NCBI GenBank assembly: GCA_000415505.1 | Contig: KE354464.1 | Span: forward strand, 1-46,900 | Direction of reading: 5' to 3' | Origin: Streptomyces afghaniensis 772 | GTDB lineage: Bacteria; Actinomycetota; Actinomycetes; Streptomycetales; Streptomycetaceae | Length of the DNA stretch: 46,900 nucleotides | Part shown: positions 12,454-44,100 of the stretch, one piece after another | How positions within the stretch are numbered: the first letter of the stretch is position 1 | Layout: every line of letters starts with the position of its first letter | Notes under the pieces: model-generated | Told to the model about the DNA's origin: nothing | The model's input: only the letters and a program-made list of their open reading frames with translations | The model's database searches: none | Made by a program: the position numbers and the translations under genes

Positions 12454-13476
12454 TCAGCCGTTGACGGCCGGGATCACCCGCGATCCGTACGTGTCGATCA
12501 CGGCTTCCTGCGCGTCGTGCATGTCGTAGACGGCGAACTGGTCCACGCCGAGCGCGCGCAGCGCGTTCAGCTTCTCGACGTGCTTCTCGACCGGGCCGAT
12601 CAGGCAGAACCGGTCGACGATCTCGTCGGGCACGAACTGGGTGTCCGGGTTGTCGGCGCGGCCGTGGTGGGAGTAGTCGTAGCCCTCCCGCGCCTTGATG
12701 TAGTCGGTGAGTTCGTCGGGGACGGCGGCGGAGTGCTCGCCGTACTTGGACACCAGGTCGGCCACGTGGTTGCCGACCATCCCGCCGAACCACCGGCACT
12801 GGTCGCGCGCGTGGGCGAGCGCCTCGGGCGAGTCGTCCTCGGTGACGTAGGCCGGGGCGGCCACGCAGACGGTCACCTCGGACGGGTCCCGGCCGGCGGC
12901 GACGGCCGCGTCCTTCACGGCCTTGACCATGTACTCGGTCAGATACAGGTCGGCCAGCTGGAGGATGAACCCGTCGGCCTCCTCGCCGGTCATCTTCAGG
13001 GCCTTGGGTCCGTACGCGGCCATCCACACGGGGAGTTCGGCGCCCGGCCCGATCCACGGGAACCGGACGACCGTGCCGTCGCCGAGGTCGGCCTCCCGAC
13101 CGCTGCCGAGGGCCCGGATGACCTTCATGGCCTCGCTGATCCGGGCCAGCGTGTTGGGCTTGCGGCCGGCCACGCGCATCGCGGAGTCGCCGCGGCCGAT
13201 GCCGCAGACCGTGCGGTTGCCGAACATGTCGTTGAGCGTGGCGAAGGTGGAGGCGGTGACCTCCCAGGTGCGGGTGCCCGGGTTGGTCACCATCGGCCCG
13301 ACCTTCAGTTTCGTGGTGTTGGCCAGGATCTGGCTGTAGATCACGAACGGTTCCTGCCACAGCACGGCGGAGTCGAAGGTCCAGCCGTACGAGAATCCGT
13401 TGCGTTCCGCCCGTTTCATCAGGCTGATCACCCGCGAGGCCGGCGGGTCGGTCTGCAGGACGAGTCCGAAGTCCAT
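12454..13476 (-). CDS. LLM-class flavin/F420-dependent oxidoreductase in the pyrimidine-degradation cluster
   Basis: A 340-residue luciferase-like TIM-barrel protein. It shows MDFGLVLQTDPPAS at the start, IGRGDSAMRVAGRKP in the cofactor-phosphate region, LPVWMAAYGPKALKMTGEEADG in the middle and a C-terminal ALGVDQFAVYDMHD. It resembles the LLM subgroup often found next to hydantoinases in actinomycetes. ATG 13476 has AGGAG 8 nt upstream. It follows the dihydropyrimidinase by 11 bp, so the two are surely cotranscribed. By context it may carry out the redox step on the pyrimidine ring that precedes ring opening, since no dihydropyrimidine dehydrogenase is present. That role is inference. Confidence 0.85.
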   Translation of the reverse strand: MDFGLVLQTDPPASRVISLMKRAERNGFSYGWTFDSAVLWQEPFVIYSQILANTTKLKVGPMVTNPGTRTWEVTASTFATLNDMFGNRTVCGIGRGDSAMRVAGRKPNTLARISEAMKVIRALGSGREADLGDGTVVRFPWIGPGAELPVWMAAYGPKALKMTGEEADGFILQLADLYLTEYMVKAVKDAAVAAGRDPSEVTVCVAAPAYVTEDDSPEALAHARDQCRWFGGMVGNHVADLVSKYGEHSAAVPDELTDYIKAREGYDYSHHGRADNPDTQFVPDEIVDRFCLIGPVEKHVEKLNALRALGVDQFAVYDMHDAQEAVIDTYGSRVIPAVNG

Positions 13477-13487
13477 CGGCACCACTC

Positions 13488-14891
13488 CTAGTTGAGGTAC
13501 TGACAGGTGGATCGCGGGGTGTAGACGCCGTGCCCGGCGTGCCCGGTGTACTCCCGCTCGGTGATCACGGGTTCGCCGCGCGAGAGGACCGTCTCGACCC
13601 GGCCGGTGACGCGTTTGCCCTCGTACGCCGAGTAGTCGACGTTCATGTGGTGGGTCTCGGCCGACATGACCTGCTCGGCGTGCGGGTCGTAGATGACGAC
13701 GTCGGCGTCGGCGCCCGGCGCGATGGTGCCCTTCTTCGGGTAGAGGCCGAACATCCGGGCCGGCGAGGCGCAGGCGATCTCGATCCAGCGGCGGCGGGAG
13801 ATGTGCCCGTCGAGGACCGCCTGGTGGAGCAGGTCCATACGGTTCTCCACCCCCGGCAGGCCGTTGGGGATCTTGGAGAAGTCGCCGCGGCCGAGTTCCT
13901 TCTGGCCCACGAAGCAGAACGGGCAGTGGTCGGTGGAGACCACCTGGAGGTCGTTGGTGCGCAGGCCCCGCCACAGCGCGGCCTGGTGCTCCTTCGGCCT
14001 GAGCGGGGTGGAGCACACGTACTTCGCGCCTTCGAAGTCCGGCTCGGCGAGGTTGTCGGTGGACAGGAACAGGTACTGCGGGCAGGTCTCGCCGAAGACG
14101 GGCAGTCCCTCGTCACGGGCCCGGGCCAGCTCGGCGACCGCCTCCGTCGCCGAGACGTGCACGACGTACAGGGGCGCGCCCGCGACCTGCGCGAGCTTGA
14201 TGGCACGGTGGGTGGCCTCGGCCTCCAGCAGGGCCTTGCGGACCTCTCCGTGGTAGCGCGGGTCGGTCTCGCCCCGGGCCAGGGCCTGCTCGACCAGGAC
14301 GTCGATCGCGATGCCGTTCTCGGCGTGCATCATGATCAGGCCGCCGTTCTCGGCGGAGCGCTGCATGGCGCGCAGGATCTGGCCGTCGTCGCTGTAGAAG
14401 ACGCCCGGGTAGGCCATGAACTGCTTGAAGGAGGTGACGCCCTCCTCGATCAGCAGGTCCATCTCCTTGAGCGTCTCCTGGTTCACATCGGAGACGATCA
14501 TGTGGAAGCCGTAGTCGACGGCGCAGTTGCCCTCGGCCTTGGCGTGCCAGGCGTCGATGCCCTCGCGCAGGCTGTGCCCGACGCTCTGCACGGCGAAGTC
14601 GATGATCGTGGTCGTGCCGCCCCAGGCGGCGGCGCGGGTGCCGGTCTCGAAGGTGTCGGAGGCGAAGGTGCCGCCGAAGGGCAGCTCCATGTGGGTGTGG
14701 GCGTCGACGCCGCCGGGGATGACGTACTTTCCGGTGGCGTCGATCGTCCGGTCTGCGGTGAAGGCCTCTGCGGCGGGGGTGCCGGAGGTTGCGAGGGCGG
14801 CGATTCGGCCGTCCTCGATCAGGACGTCGGCGTGGATCTCGTCGGATGCGGTGATGACGAGGCCGCCGCGGATGACGGTTCGGGTGGTCAT
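13488..14891 (-). CDS. hydA: Dihydropyrimidinase / D-hydantoinase
   Basis: A 467-residue cyclic amidohydrolase. Binuclear metal ligands are visible in order: H65 and H67 (VDAHTHME), the carboxylated Lys K156 (SFKQFMAY), H189 (MMHAENG), H245 (VVHVSA) and D321 (STDHCPF). It opens dihydrouracil, dihydrothymine or 5-substituted hydantoins to N-carbamoyl amino acids, which the neighbouring ureidopropionase-like enzymes would cleave. ATG 14891 has GAGGAG 9 nt upstream. It is 94 bp downstream of the amidohydrolase gene on the same strand, and that gap holds a Streptomyces intergenic repeat that could modulate readthrough. Confidence 0.93.
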   Translation of the reverse strand: MTTRTVIRGGLVITASDEIHADVLIEDGRIAALATSGTPAAEAFTADRTIDATGKYVIPGGVDAHTHMELPFGGTFASDTFETGTRAAAWGGTTTIIDFAVQSVGHSLREGIDAWHAKAEGNCAVDYGFHMIVSDVNQETLKEMDLLIEEGVTSFKQFMAYPGVFYSDDGQILRAMQRSAENGGLIMMHAENGIAIDVLVEQALARGETDPRYHGEVRKALLEAEATHRAIKLAQVAGAPLYVVHVSATEAVAELARARDEGLPVFGETCPQYLFLSTDNLAEPDFEGAKYVCSTPLRPKEHQAALWRGLRTNDLQVVSTDHCPFCFVGQKELGRGDFSKIPNGLPGVENRMDLLHQAVLDGHISRRRWIEIACASPARMFGLYPKKGTIAPGADADVVIYDPHAEQVMSAETHHMNVDYSAYEGKRVTGRVETVLSRGEPVITEREYTGHAGHGVYTPRSTCQYLN

Positions 14892-35250: not shown

Positions 35251-36555
35251 TCACTCCTGGGGCGTGGTCTCCTCGCGGATGACCTGCTGGGCGACCTTGA
35301 ACGCGCTGTTCGCGGCGGGGACGCCGCAGTAGACGGCCGCCTGGAGCAGCACCTCCTTGATCTCGCCCGGGGTGAGGCCGTTGCGCAGGGCGGCGCGGGT
35401 GTGGAAGGCCAGCTCGTCCAGGTGGCCGCCGGCGACCAGGGCGGTGAGGGTGACGCAGCTGCGGGTGCGCCGGTCGAGGCCGGGGCGGTCCCAGATCTCG
35501 CCCCAGGCGTAGCGGGTGATGAACTCCTGGAAGTCCCCGGAGAACTCGTCGGCCTGTGCCAGCGCCCGGTCGACGTGCGCGTCGCCCAGCACCTCACGGC
35601 GGACCTTGAGCCCGGCGTCGTAGGGGTCGGGCCGCCCCTGGGGCTGCGGCGGCGCGACCGGGGCGATCTCGGCTACGGGGCCGGTCTGGAGGGGCTGTGC
35701 CGGGGCGGCGGACAGGACCGGCTTCACGGCGGCCGCGGGCAGGGCGGTCTGCCCGGTGGAGGTCTCGAAGGCGGGCTGCCAGGCGGTGGAGAAGTGCCTC
35801 ACCAGCAGGTCGGTGACGGCCGCGGGCTGCTCCACCGGCACCAGGTGGGAGGCGCCGGGGACGACGGCGAGGCGGGCGTCCGGGATGCCGGCGACCAGGG
35901 TGCGGGCCTCGGCGGGGCCGGTGACCTGGTCGTCCGATCCGACGAGGACCAGCGTCGGCACGCCGACTCGCCCGAGCTCGGCCCGCACGTCGAACGAGGC
36001 GAGCGCCTCGCAGGCGGCGATGTAGCAGCCGGGGTCGGTGGTGCGCACCATCTGCACGGCCCACTCGGTGATCGCGGGCTGCGCGGCGGCGAACCCGCCG
36101 GTGAACCAGCGGTCGGGCGCGGTACGGGCGATGGGGTCGAGGCCGTTCGTGCGGACTATCACGCCTCTCTGCCGGAACTCGTCGGCCGTGCCGAAGCGCG
36201 GCGAGGCGGCGATCAGCGCGAGGGAGGCGAGCCGCTCGGGGTGGCGCAGGGCCAGCTCGATGCCGACCGCGCCGCCGAGGGCACAGCCCGCGTAGCCGAA
36301 GCGCTGCACGCCGAGCCCTTCGAGGGTGGCCAGCAGCCGGGTGGTGAGGTCGGTGACCGAGCCCGCCGGGTACGCGGGCGCGCCGCCGTGCCCCGGCAGG
36401 TCGAACCGGAAGACGCGCCACTGCTTGATCAGCTCGGGGACCTGGCGGTCCCACATGTGCCATGTGGTACCGAGGGACGGTCCCAAGATCAAGACAGGGG
36501 CGTCTTCTGGCCCGTCAAAGCGGTATTGCAGCGTTTCGATCTTGGCTTCGCTCAC
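35251..36555 (-). CDS. pcaL: PcaL: beta-ketoadipate enol-lactone hydrolase / carboxymuconolactone decarboxylase fusion, with altered nucleophile and foreign 5' end
   Basis: 434 residues. The N-terminal alpha/beta hydrolase (about 1-260) would be the PcaD enol-lactone hydrolase and the C-terminal ~110 residues the PcaC decarboxylase (RTRSCVTLTALVAGGHLDEL). They are joined by a Pro/Ala linker. Both act on successive steps of protocatechuate degradation. Two oddities are seen. First, the nucleophile elbow, normally G-x-S-x-G-G, reads GCALGG, with Ala92 (GCC) where Ser is expected; D in VGSDDQV and H in GASHLVP are kept. Second, codons 1-31 have 10 A/T-ending codons but codons 32-90 only one, and the switch falls on an inverted repeat. 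The start GTG 36555 is 29 bp after the integrase stop, with GAAGG upstream. Confidence 0.9.
   Translation of the reverse strand: MSEAKIETLQYRFDGPEDAPVLILGPSLGTTWHMWDRQVPELIKQWRVFRFDLPGHGGAPAYPAGSVTDLTTRLLATLEGLGVQRFGYAGCALGGAVGIELALRHPERLASLALIAASPRFGTADEFRQRGVIVRTNGLDPIARTAPDRWFTGGFAAAQPAITEWAVQMVRTTDPGCYIAACEALASFDVRAELGRVGVPTLVLVGSDDQVTGPAEARTLVAGIPDARLAVVPGASHLVPVEQPAAVTDLLVRHFSTAWQPAFETSTGQTALPAAAVKPVLSAAPAQPLQTGPVAEIAPVAPPQPQGRPDPYDAGLKVRREVLGDAHVDRALAQADEFSGDFQEFITRYAWGEIWDRPGLDRRTRSCVTLTALVAGGHLDELAFHTRAALRNGLTPGEIKEVLLQAAVYCGVPAANSAFKVAQQVIREETTPQE
36451..36467. other. Candidate attachment-site core (attL) inside pcaL
   Basis: CCACATG-TGC-CATGTGG is a perfect 7-3-7 inverted repeat, encoding residues 31-35 of PcaL. 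It coincides with the point where pcaL codon use changes from element-like to chromosomal. The integrase gene lies 0.12 kb away. The matching second copy would be at the far element end, outside the window. Confidence 0.55.
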
Positions 36556-36569
36556 GGGTTCACACCTTC

Positions 36570-36588
36570 ATCTGTCACGATCTGTCAC
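36570..36588. repeat. Two direct repeats in the integrase-pcaL gap
   Basis: ATCTGTCAC occurs at 36570-36578 and 36580-36588 (10-bp period), overlapping the integrase stop. Short helically phased repeats beside an att site are typical integrase-arm or excisionase sites. Confidence 0.45.
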
Positions 36589-37766
36589 ACGCCCCCTGCG
36601 AGACCTCCCCATGCCTCCGCTGCTGGAAGCAGGTCCGCCACGTCCGGCTTCACGTACCACTTCTTCGTCGTCTTCACGTTCGTGTGCCCGGCCCACATGG
36701 CGAGCAGGTGATCCGGCACCCCGTTGTTGGCGAGGTACGTGAGGCAAGACGCCCGAGCATCGTACAGACGGACCCTGCGAAGGCCGTTTTCATCCATGAT
36801 CTTGTAGGCCCGCACCCGCAACTGCCGAGCGTTCAACGCGGCGCCAAGTTCATCCACGAGTACGTAGCCGGCGCCCTCGTAGCCTTCACCCGCCGTCAGA
36901 CGTTCCACTGCCTGCGTGGCACGGAACGCCTTCAGCGCCTCCCTTACCAGACTCGGAAGGGGCAAAACGCGCTCCCCCGCCATGCTCTTCGTGTCCTTCT
37001 CCACCACTGTGCGGTTCCCCATCATGGTCCGCGTGTTAGCGATGGTGAGCGTGCCCGCGTGCAGGTCGATGTCCGACCACCTCAGGCCGCAGACCTCCGC
37101 CGGGCGGAGCCCCATCAGGGACAGCAGCAGCGGCGCGTACAGACGGTCCACCTTCATCACAGCGACGAAGGCACCCACCTCCGAGGCGTTCCACGGCTGG
37201 ACGACCGCCTTTGTCTTCCGCTCCGCCTTGCGGGCCTTCAGCGGGATGTGCACTTCGCTGGCTACGTTCACGGTCACCAGGCCGCGCGTGACAGCGCGGT
37301 TCAGGGCATCCTTCAGCCGGGCCAGGCTCATGTCCACCGACGTGACCCCGAGACCCATTCCGGCTTTCACGCCGCGGACACGGCCTCCTTGGAGTGCCCA
37401 CCGCATCCACCCCACCACATGGTCCTCCGTAAGCTCTTGCAGCCGGAGGTTCCCGAGCTTTCCGCGCACACGATCCAGGGTCACCTGGTAGTTGTAGATC
37501 GTGGTTGGCTCCAGGTCTTCGGCCTTCATCTCGAGCCACCGATCCAGCCATTCGTTCACGGTGATCTTGCTGGGCGGGACGAATGTCCCCTCGTGTCGCT
37601 TGCTGGTGATGCGGGCATACGCCACCTTCGCTTCCTTCAGTGTGTCGAAGGTTCGTCGGAGCTGCTTCCGCTTCCCCGTCTCGGGGTCTACGCCCACGTC
37701 CACCACGAAGCGGTAGCGCACCTGCCCCTTCGCGTTTGGCGGCAGCTTCTTGATCGGTTCGGGCAT
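36585..37766 (-). CDS. int: Tyrosine recombinase/phage-type integrase
   Basis: 393 residues. The N-terminal part has an arm-type DNA-binding region (RYRFVVDVGVDPETGKRKQL) and a SAM-like core-binding domain (about 70-165). The catalytic domain has R221 (SLMGLRPAEVCGLRW), the probable K260, the second Arg R338 in VRLYDARAS, H361 in MWAGHTN and nucleophile Y371 in KKWYVKP. The usual HxxR His is Tyr335 here, a substitution tolerated in some family members. ATG 37766 has AGGAAGG 8 nt upstream. It ends 29 bp before pcaL, as expected for an integrase next to its attachment site. Codon use is less GC-biased than the chromosome to the left. Confidence 0.92.
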   Translation of the reverse strand: MPEPIKKLPPNAKGQVRYRFVVDVGVDPETGKRKQLRRTFDTLKEAKVAYARITSKRHEGTFVPPSKITVNEWLDRWLEMKAEDLEPTTIYNYQVTLDRVRGKLGNLRLQELTEDHVVGWMRWALQGGRVRGVKAGMGLGVTSVDMSLARLKDALNRAVTRGLVTVNVASEVHIPLKARKAERKTKAVVQPWNASEVGAFVAVMKVDRLYAPLLLSLMGLRPAEVCGLRWSDIDLHAGTLTIANTRTMMGNRTVVEKDTKSMAGERVLPLPSLVREALKAFRATQAVERLTAGEGYEGAGYVLVDELGAALNARQLRVRAYKIMDENGLRRVRLYDARASCLTYLANNGVPDHLLAMWAGHTNVKTTKKWYVKPDVADLLPAAEAWGGLAGGV

Positions 37767-41185: not shown

Positions 41186-44100
41186 ATGGCCACACTGCAA
41201 ACCACTGTCGCTACCGAGCCGCGTCAAGGGCTCGGTCCGGCCGGGTGCTCTGAAATGGTTAACGATCCAGTCACCACTGCGACTCTTGATTACTTGCAGC
41301 GCACCCAACTCGTTCCCGCAATTGACACGGACGCCGCAGTGATTGTGACTAAGGATGTCCGGCGCATGCTACGCGTCACGGGGGTCGGCCAGCCGAGACG
41401 CCCGTCGGCGCCACGTGCAGAGGGCACGGCGATTGAGCCGCCAACGCTGCCGTTGCTGGTGGGTCTCGCCGGTGCAGGGGTCCCGGTCGCGTTCCTACTC
41501 GAAGGTCAAAGTGACGGAGTGTCAGTACGGCTAGGCACCTGGGCTCCGTTGGGCATGGGTGACGCGGCGATCGATGCTCGACAAACAATGCTTTGTGCCA
41601 TGCTCGACGGTTCTTATCCAGCTGTTGACCTTTCCCCCGGGCCAGCCGCGACTCCCGGATTTGACTATGGCGCGCTAGGTCTGGGCGTGCCGGCTCCATT
41701 GATAGCTGACCCGCGTGACGGCGCGCTGCCAATCGACCGTCTGGTGCGATCGATGACAGGTTTGCGATGGGCTGCACTCGTTCTGGCGGTGCCTGTTGAT
41801 GCCGCCGCACTTGGCGCGGACCGCAATCGAGTCCTCAACGAAATGCGTGCGGTGGCCGCTGCGGTGCAAGCGGCTGGAGTACGCAGTCCCCTCGCTGAGC
41901 ACTACCAGATCTTGCTGCAGCGACGTCTTGACGCGTTGGCGGATGCTCAGGGGCGTGGAGGTTGGCGCACCGGTGTCTACCTTCTCGGCTCCCGTCCACA
42001 GGATGTCGCAGCGTTGACCAGTGCATGGCGGGCCGTATTTTCCGGCGCGCTTTTGGTGCCGGAACCGGTGCGCACGACGACGCATCCGACGATCGCCCAG
42101 CTGGCAGCCTGCTGGGGCATGCCGGAGGGGCCGGCGCAACCTGGCCCCAGTGGGTATCAGCACCCCTTTGCTGCACAGACGTTGTTGAGCTCGTCTCAGC
42201 TTGCCGGGTACGTGCATCTGCCAGCCTTGGAAACGGCGGGCTTCAGTGTCCGCATCGTCCCGCGGTTTGATGTGTCGTCTCCACCGAGCGCGGGCCCAAG
42301 CGTGGCCGATCGGTTCGGTAGTGGAGAGGGACCAGCCGAGTGCTACGGCGTTCACCGTTCCCATCGACTCGTTGACTCGGCACGTGTTCGTCGCGGGTGT
42401 GACCGGCTCCGGCAAGAGCAATTCAGTGCTTCACCTGATCCGCCAGGTGGCTGTTGCAGGCGTCCCATTCCTCGTGGTCGAGCCGGCCAAGGCGGAGTAC
42501 CGAGCGCTGCTGCGCGACCCAATAGTCGGTCCTGCTTTGCGCGTCTTCACTCTTGCCGGGAGACAGTCTCACCCCTACGCCTCAATCCTTCGAGTCCCGA
42601 CGGAGCTCCATCGAGGGCATGTGGACTTGCTGCGTGCCGTCTTCGAGGGAGCGTTCGGCATGTGGGCACCGCTACCACAAGTGCTGGAGCGCTGCCTGCA
42701 TGAGGTGTACGAAGACCGTGGCTGGGACTTGCGAACTGACACTAACCACCGCCTAGACGAGCATGCACCCGCCTGGTCGGCCTTTCCTACCCTGAGCGAT
42801 CTCGCCACGAAGGTTCCCACAGTCACACGCTCGCTGGGATACGACGCAGAAGTCACCGCAAACATCGAAGCCGCGCTGACGACCCGAATCAACAGCCTGC
42901 GCCTCGGAGGAAGGGGGCGGCTGCTTGACGTACCACGCTCTCTGCCGATGGCCGAACTGCTTGCAGCACCGACGGTCATAGAACTTGAGTCGATGGGAAG
43001 CGATGACGACAAAGACGTTCGTCATGGGTCTTCTGTTGGTTGCGGCTCGCAGAATATCGCCGCGCACAGGGGCAACGCCCCGGACTCACTCACCTGTTCG
43101 TCGTCGAGGAAGCACACCGTCTACTGGGGGCCGTACAGCCTGTGCGGAGTGAGAACGTCGCCGATCCGCGAGGCAGCGCAGTCGAGAGTTTCACGAATCT
43201 GCTGTCAGAGATCCGCGCCTACGGGCAGGCGTAGTCATCGCCAACCAAGTGCCGACCCGGCTCGCACCTGAGGTCGTTGAAGAACACCCTGCTGAAGCTG
43301 GCACATCGGACGGTCGCAGCCGACGATCGTTTCGCCCTGGCCAGCACGATGAGCATGGACCAGGCCCAGTCCGACGCGCTGGTCCCGCTGGCGGTCGGCC
43401 GCGCGGCAGCCTTCGGATTCGGGGCAGATGCCCCTGTGTTGGTACAGGTGCCGCCGACGAAGGATGACAAGCTGATCCGGGATACCGATGATGCCGCGGT
43501 CCGGAACGCCATGGCGGCCTGGCGCCGTGCCGGGCGCTGGAACGAGCTCTGGTTGGCCAGGCCCTCCTGCGTGGCCGCGTGCATAGGCCACGACGAGGAG
43601 TGCACAGCTGCCCGGTCGCTGCTGGACCAACGTCTTGTACGCCGGACGTTCACCCGCATCGTGCTGTCCCTGCTGTCGGACCCAACAAGCCTCGAACGCA
43701 CCTGGCAAGATCTCGTGCAAATCGTTCGCCCTCACCAGGGACCACGCATTGAGGAGACCGCCCTCTTGCGCTGCCTCGCCGCGCACGCCCCACGATTGGT
43801 ACGCAGAACGCAGAGGCGCACAGGCAGAGTGGACATACAGTGCCACACTGCAATACGCACATCGGCTGCGGCAAGCCCTTCTCGCACCCGTGACCGGCGC
43901 CCTCCGAGATCGATGCCTTTCGCACTTATGCGACTGATCAGCACGCCTGCGGGCCCGCCATATCCGGCGTGCACGGAAGTTTGCCCGGAGCACACATGCC
44001 TGTACCGGGGAGCAGCAGCCGATCTCGTGGCCGAGGGACGATATGACGCCTCTTGGGCGGCGGCCGATGCCGCAGACAGAGGTAACAGCAGCCGGGACGC

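Follow-up and report, generated by a model that had tools for sequence, protein, structure and literature searches.

Streptomyces islands that probably enter a pcaL-like gene at its 5' end and rebuild its start

Replacement of a gene's 5' end by an integrating island is already known from SXT, at prfC, and from the dusA islands. The dusA-specific elements (e.g. IMEVchUSA3; Farrugia et al. 2015) resemble the pcaL elements described here in their tyrosine integrase, in entering at the 5' end of a protein gene and in supplying a new N-terminus. Two papers describe diverse cargo, 4.8–185 kb, for them and note that the 5' sequence of dusA is changed in strains that carry one (PMC8409611, PMC4482086); diverse cargo is common to both groups. 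They differ in host and target (Proteobacteria and dusA versus Streptomyces and pcaL) and in orientation, as the 5' end of the integrase gene adjoins the dusA 5' end in that system, whereas it is the 3' end of int that faces pcaL in the present elements. A new promoter brought by a dusA element has been demonstrated by lacZ fusion; for pcaL, a promoter from the element is presumed. The SXT/R391 ICEs likewise integrate in a gene 5' end and are stated to give prfC a new promoter and N-terminus (PMC8409611; site in PMC2791158), but they are conjugative elements of gammaproteobacteria, and such a transfer module was not recognised in the pcaL elements, the interiors of which were partly scanned. 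The AICEs share with the pcaL elements a Streptomyces host, a tyrosine integrase, accretion at one site and decay, which leaves int remnants (PMC9513070). They sit mostly at the 3' ends of tRNA genes (PMC3218068), unlike the pcaL elements. PMC9513070 counts 14 AICE insertions in protein genes, and pcaL may be among them. Both AICE papers agree with the remark in the initial annotation that attachment sites at the 5' ends of metabolic genes, with the reading frame restored, are much rarer than tRNA sites. No published report of a pcaL integration site was found in the literature searched, supplements aside.

The window, the whole stretch of 46,900 bp that was analysed, is an entire contig (C759) of a draft genome of 9.85 Mb in 1,724 contigs. 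The integration target is a pcaL-like gene encoding a PcaD-PcaC fusion (35251..36555, minus strand; NCBIfam NF051488 bifunc_PcaDC, E = 5e-172), the frame of which is intact and full-length, with both domains present. Judged by alignment, pcaL from codon 32 onward is chromosomal, and this side matches the relative G009 at 94.5% identity across 5,491 bp, up to position 36450, where the alignment stops. There begins an imperfect core palindrome, CCACATGTGCCATGTGG (36451..36467), present once in the window and as a single exact copy in the genome; TGGCACA (36456..36462, minus strand), the putative crossover segment, lies in its middle. The GTG start and codons 1–31 (36463..36555, minus strand) form what mismatches to G009 and co-variation with the integrase indicate to be a replacement, element-borne 5' end, preceded by GAAGG (36565..36569, minus strand), likely the element-borne ribosome-binding site of the rebuilt gene. 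Two direct GTGACAGA repeats (36571..36588, minus strand), candidate integrase arm sites, follow, the first overlapping the integrase stop codon. The tyrosine integrase itself (36585..37766, minus strand; Pfam Phage_integrase, 4.8e-18, with Arm-DNA-bind_4 and Phage_int_SAM_3) is co-directional with pcaL, and its residues R221, R338, H361 and Y371 are conserved in most relatives. The rest of the contig (37767..46900), the worn right part of the element, drops in GC from ~0.72 to 0.63 and holds an IS4/5 transposase frame, a HerA/FtsK-like frame at 42201–43271 and a zinc-ribbon frame (Pfam; PADLOC for HerA).

The initial annotation had proposed recombination within the pcaL coding sequence, with the element bringing start codon, ribosome site and 31 codons, and its description of the junction proved accurate. 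Exactly the ten A/T-ending codons that it listed occur among codons 1–31 and one (GAA) among codons 32–90 (Fisher p = 6.5e-5); the change falls on the palindrome, within which codon 32 (TGG) begins at 36462; and the integrase stop codon (36587–36585) is 29 bp from the GTG at 36555. The contrast is general, with A/T-ending codons averaging 32% in the 63 integrase-adjacent pcaL 5' ends as against 7.9% in the 60 codons after the core, and with a higher share before the core than after it at all 63 loci. The proposal itself is borne out by an attachment site elsewhere in the genome and by a switch in co-variation near the core, and is further supported by the recurrence of the layout and by an open pcaL frame across the empty site obtained by joining the own-genome flanks in silico.

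That other attachment site is the second core beside a displaced pcaL 5' end which the initial annotation had expected at the far end of the element. A 201-bp junction query found one other place in the genome, at 10450–10536 of contig C346 (84% identity), which an attL pattern search also recovered; the sequence at that place reads as a pcaL 5' end as far as ...ACCACCTGGCACAGG and continues with TTGTAGAGACCGTC, the left end of the element. The expectation holds for the displaced 5' end but not for the full CCACATGTGCCATGTGG, which is not repeated, 3 of its 17 positions being different. A palindrome search allowing two mismatches missed this junction because its core differs at three positions; the only other place in the genome within that limit is C448, 24063–24079 (locus L002). 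TGGCACA is identical in attL (C346) and attR (the window), and the neighbouring base on each side differs. G007, whose chromosome is a single contig and which shows a partial integrase match next to pcaL, has a like junction ~31.8 kb upstream of pcaL, with a displaced native 5' end as on C346, and its two junctions again share TGGCACA and differ on both sides, so the exchange is placed in TGGCACA. We infer that the window and C346, which the assembly leaves as separate contigs, represent opposite ends of a single element. Next to the junction on C346, the 3' remnant of an integrase was recognised by eye only, and tblastn at E 1e-3 reported none. The attL pattern occurs in at most 62 of 392 genomes, an upper bound because a reversed control also matched ~20 (our own count). 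The far junction of G013 was not found within the 100 kb examined; pattern matches place a left-end junction and an integrase on its contig C1 (6917855 and 7274319) ~356 kb apart, as in a very large island or an array.

Related integrases were compared at 81 loci, the window and 80 named ones, of which 79 belong to Streptomyces and one to Actinacidiphila, a distribution that makes Streptomyces the probable genus of the window as well. The order integrase, pcaL 5' end, core and pcaL within 800 bp recurs at 63 of the 81, and in a second sample of 30 loci (counted by hand) pcaL was found in 22, a left end in 3 more and neither in 5; at both sets of loci, 63/81 and 22/30, the integrase thus sits at a fixed core and adjoins a protein gene at its 5' end. 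Eleven of the 81 have integrase and core followed by something other than pcaL under a loose pattern (10 under a stricter one requiring left-end sequence). Seven show neither layout; one of these (L146) has pcaL 304 bp on, and three (L124, L129 and L133) have it 2.9–6.6 kb on. The 5 loci of the second sample with neither are L080–L082 and L084, with integrases of 54–57% identity, and L067 (72%); no pcaL core was found within 700 bp of these integrases. Across the genus, 55 of 392 genomes have integrase matches at E <= 1e-60, some of a distant kind. In G148, G172, G277, G299 and G372 the attL pattern recurs two or three times within a single contig, on the same strand, and in G277 two integrases with equal scores lie 33.7 kb from each other, which is what tandem arrays would give.

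The motif GTGA[CG]A reaches 85.7 per kb at −130..−110 from the core and is absent from the sampled stretches further upstream; at this integrase-side position at least two copies occur in 51 of the 63 loci and at least one in 59. In 33 left ends it reaches 22.4 per kb at +100..+150 and falls under 0.4 per kb beyond 250. These repeats are probably integrase arm sites, because the integrase has an arm-binding domain, and the replacement start is located between them and the core. All 33 left ends carry an in-frame stop at codon 4 or 5 past the core. Six of them (L086, L091, L097, L102, L104 and L107) adjoin sequence unlike pcaL; L086 and L091 share a flank, L097 in part, and this may be another target gene.

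Against replacement by a site-specific element, we weighed three other accounts of the rebuilt gene. The A/T-ending codons could be native, selected for weak structure near the start codon, with nothing replaced. Many strains without a detected integrase do have such codons, and 9 of 31 end in A/T in G024, one of four relatives (with G033, G011 and G014) that are insert-free, a SWIM-domain gene, where the initial annotation had suggested pcaB, being the direct neighbour of pcaL 186–363 bp upstream; A/T-rich 5' codons are not diagnostic by themselves, because G024 has them. The other three insert-free relatives have only 5, 2 and 2, however, and among the 15 relatives used (14 of 29 were excluded as having no usable gap), the other eleven of which have SWIM–pcaL gaps of 1.9–365 kb, distance in the 5' end tracks insertion status given body distance (partial r 0.83, the best of 1,365 labelings, exact p 1/1365), as it also tracks the integrase. 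Moreover, of the 93 positions preceding the core 20 differ between the window and G009, as against 17 of the 600 that follow it (p = 4.4e-12); over the same 93 bases the C346 copy differs from G009 at 21, and the window from the C346 copy at 21. Native codons are on this evidence very improbable. We give still less credence to ordinary homologous recombination or gene conversion having swapped the 5' end beside a bystander integrase, as integrase type and 5' end travel together: in partial Mantel tests on 55 of the 63 integrase and pcaL loci (8 were dropped for a short integrase or pcaL), the 5' end correlates with integrase distance (partial r = 0.70, p = 0.0005) and weakly with the pcaL body (r = 0.24, p = 0.010), whereas the 90 bases after the core correlate with the body (r = 0.53, p = 0.0005) and not with the integrase (r = 0.05, p = 0.27). 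There are, besides, 33 cases in which this core adjoins the left end of an element that has repeats of its own, and integrase, core and pcaL recur together at 63 of 81 loci. Conversion does fit one observation, namely that close to the core the correlation with the body takes an intermediate value, which some conversion at a later time could produce. Over the final 30 bases ahead of the core this correlation (0.42) is higher than that with the integrase (0.34), so that this test locates the switch only to within some tens of bases, and in sliding windows the change is gradual from those bases to the first ~40 after the core.

It is also unlikely that the element merely interrupts pcaL and that the rebuilt frame is an accident in a dead gene. 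This account draws on an alanine in place of the likely lactonase nucleophile serine (GCA for GCS, at what we take to be the nucleophile motif of the PcaD half) in the window and in 4 of 6 relatives, but the insert-free G011 and G014 have the alanine too, so it is not due to the insertion. Against it stand the intact full-length frame with both domains and a dN/dS in the element-borne codons of 0.17 (last 23 codons) or 0.29 (27 codons) in frame, as against 1.25 and 4.6 in the other two frames, figures that are pooled over pairs and not independent. These values indicate that the element-borne codons of pcaL are under purifying selection, and co-variation, dN/dS and frame agree in pointing to an element that supplies the start and N-terminal codons in frame. 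Across the seven aligned proteins, the nucleophile position is Ala (GCA) in five and Ser (GCS) in two, and in one clade the lactonase half may lack activity.

The reading we hold with high confidence is that of an integrase family inserting in a pcaL-like gene at TGGCACA, with the element rebuilding the pcaL start and the old 5' end displaced; layout, second junction, co-variation, frame and selection were each seen in the sequences compared. In this scheme a Streptomyces tyrosine integrase would recombine the attP of the element with an attB in the 5' part of a pcaL-like gene, by an exchange within TGGCACA (codons 32–34). The element would hold a replacement start (ribosome site, GTG and 31 codons) between the integrase-side arm repeats and the core, so rebuilding the pcaL reading frame on the integrase side, while the old 5' end would be pushed to the far end, where the element left end closes the old frame with an in-frame stop. 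Further elements may insert at this core later on, giving tandem arrays, and the replacement start would often stay after the integrase decays. pcaL would now be transcribed from element DNA, perhaps in dependence on int, and the element is presumably able to excise.

The initial annotation had taken A/T-rich pcaL 5' codons in strains without the integrase as evidence against its reading. Such strains exist, but where this is checkable their 5' ends accompany DNA inserted beside pcaL, mostly resembling scars of past integrations. Nine of the eleven relatives with an insertion have no integrase match at E <= 1e-60, and pairs of arm-like repeats occur in 6 of the 11 as against none of the 4 insert-free ones. 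Because inserts, 5' class and arm-like repeats go together, element-type 5' ends without an integrase look like leftovers of past integrations, another, undetected integrase being possible. The element-type 20-mer CAATACCGCTTTGACGGGCC is found in 117 of 392 genomes, in two or more copies in 31; 87 of the 117 have no integrase match at E <= 1e-60, and 30 are among the 55 integrase genomes (overlap by hand). It seems to us reasonably likely that, across much of Streptomyces, pcaL has a control region and codons 1–31 that consist of mobile-element DNA, that successive islands overwrite a start which outlives each of them, and that the 5' end is a running record of integrations. A CopC-like gene was considered as the native pcaL neighbour and dropped, being found only in G007 among the loci compared.

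Such islands would insert near the start of a metabolic gene and mend it, presumably taking control of pcaL expression, and their site is a place at which islands gather whose cargo is biosynthetic, urease or restriction-like. Provided that the scars have been interpreted rightly, a small segment of a host gene preserves a history of integrations long after the islands have decayed, one that lends itself to dating and counting. Together with its 17-bp core, the integrase is a candidate tool for site-specific integration. As to class, the check for AICE-type genes, an FtsK/TraB-type transfer protein and a Rep protein, gave one HerA/FtsK-like frame in the window, with element interiors partly scanned; the best phage match of the integrase is 38.6%, and viral contigs gave one locus at 55%. 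An excisionase-like HTH_17 gene occurs in 5 of 33 left ends, the copy on C346 being decayed. Within the 10 kb upstream of int, each gene family occurs at 13 or fewer of 77 loci, and an automatic search for a common left-end gene returned mainly shadow frames. The cargo includes ketosynthase (polyketide synthase) and glycosyltransferase genes in the G007 element, urease and an additional gene for RNA polymerase alpha in an element of G277, and pieces of a type IIG/ISP restriction-methylase with a TPR protein in that of C346.

The RNA polymerase alpha gene (Pfam) lies near the integrase, inside the pcaL island, at 12780–13772 of locus L198 (8468579–8469571 in G277). On the element side of C346 (L035, 15979–18604), the restriction-methylase matches are split across separate frames and apparently broken. 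The genome of the window also has a second adjacent pair of PcaD-like and PcaC-like genes (G000, contig C800, 24559–25671; 47% and 68% identity), and the pcaL of the window may therefore be a paralogue.
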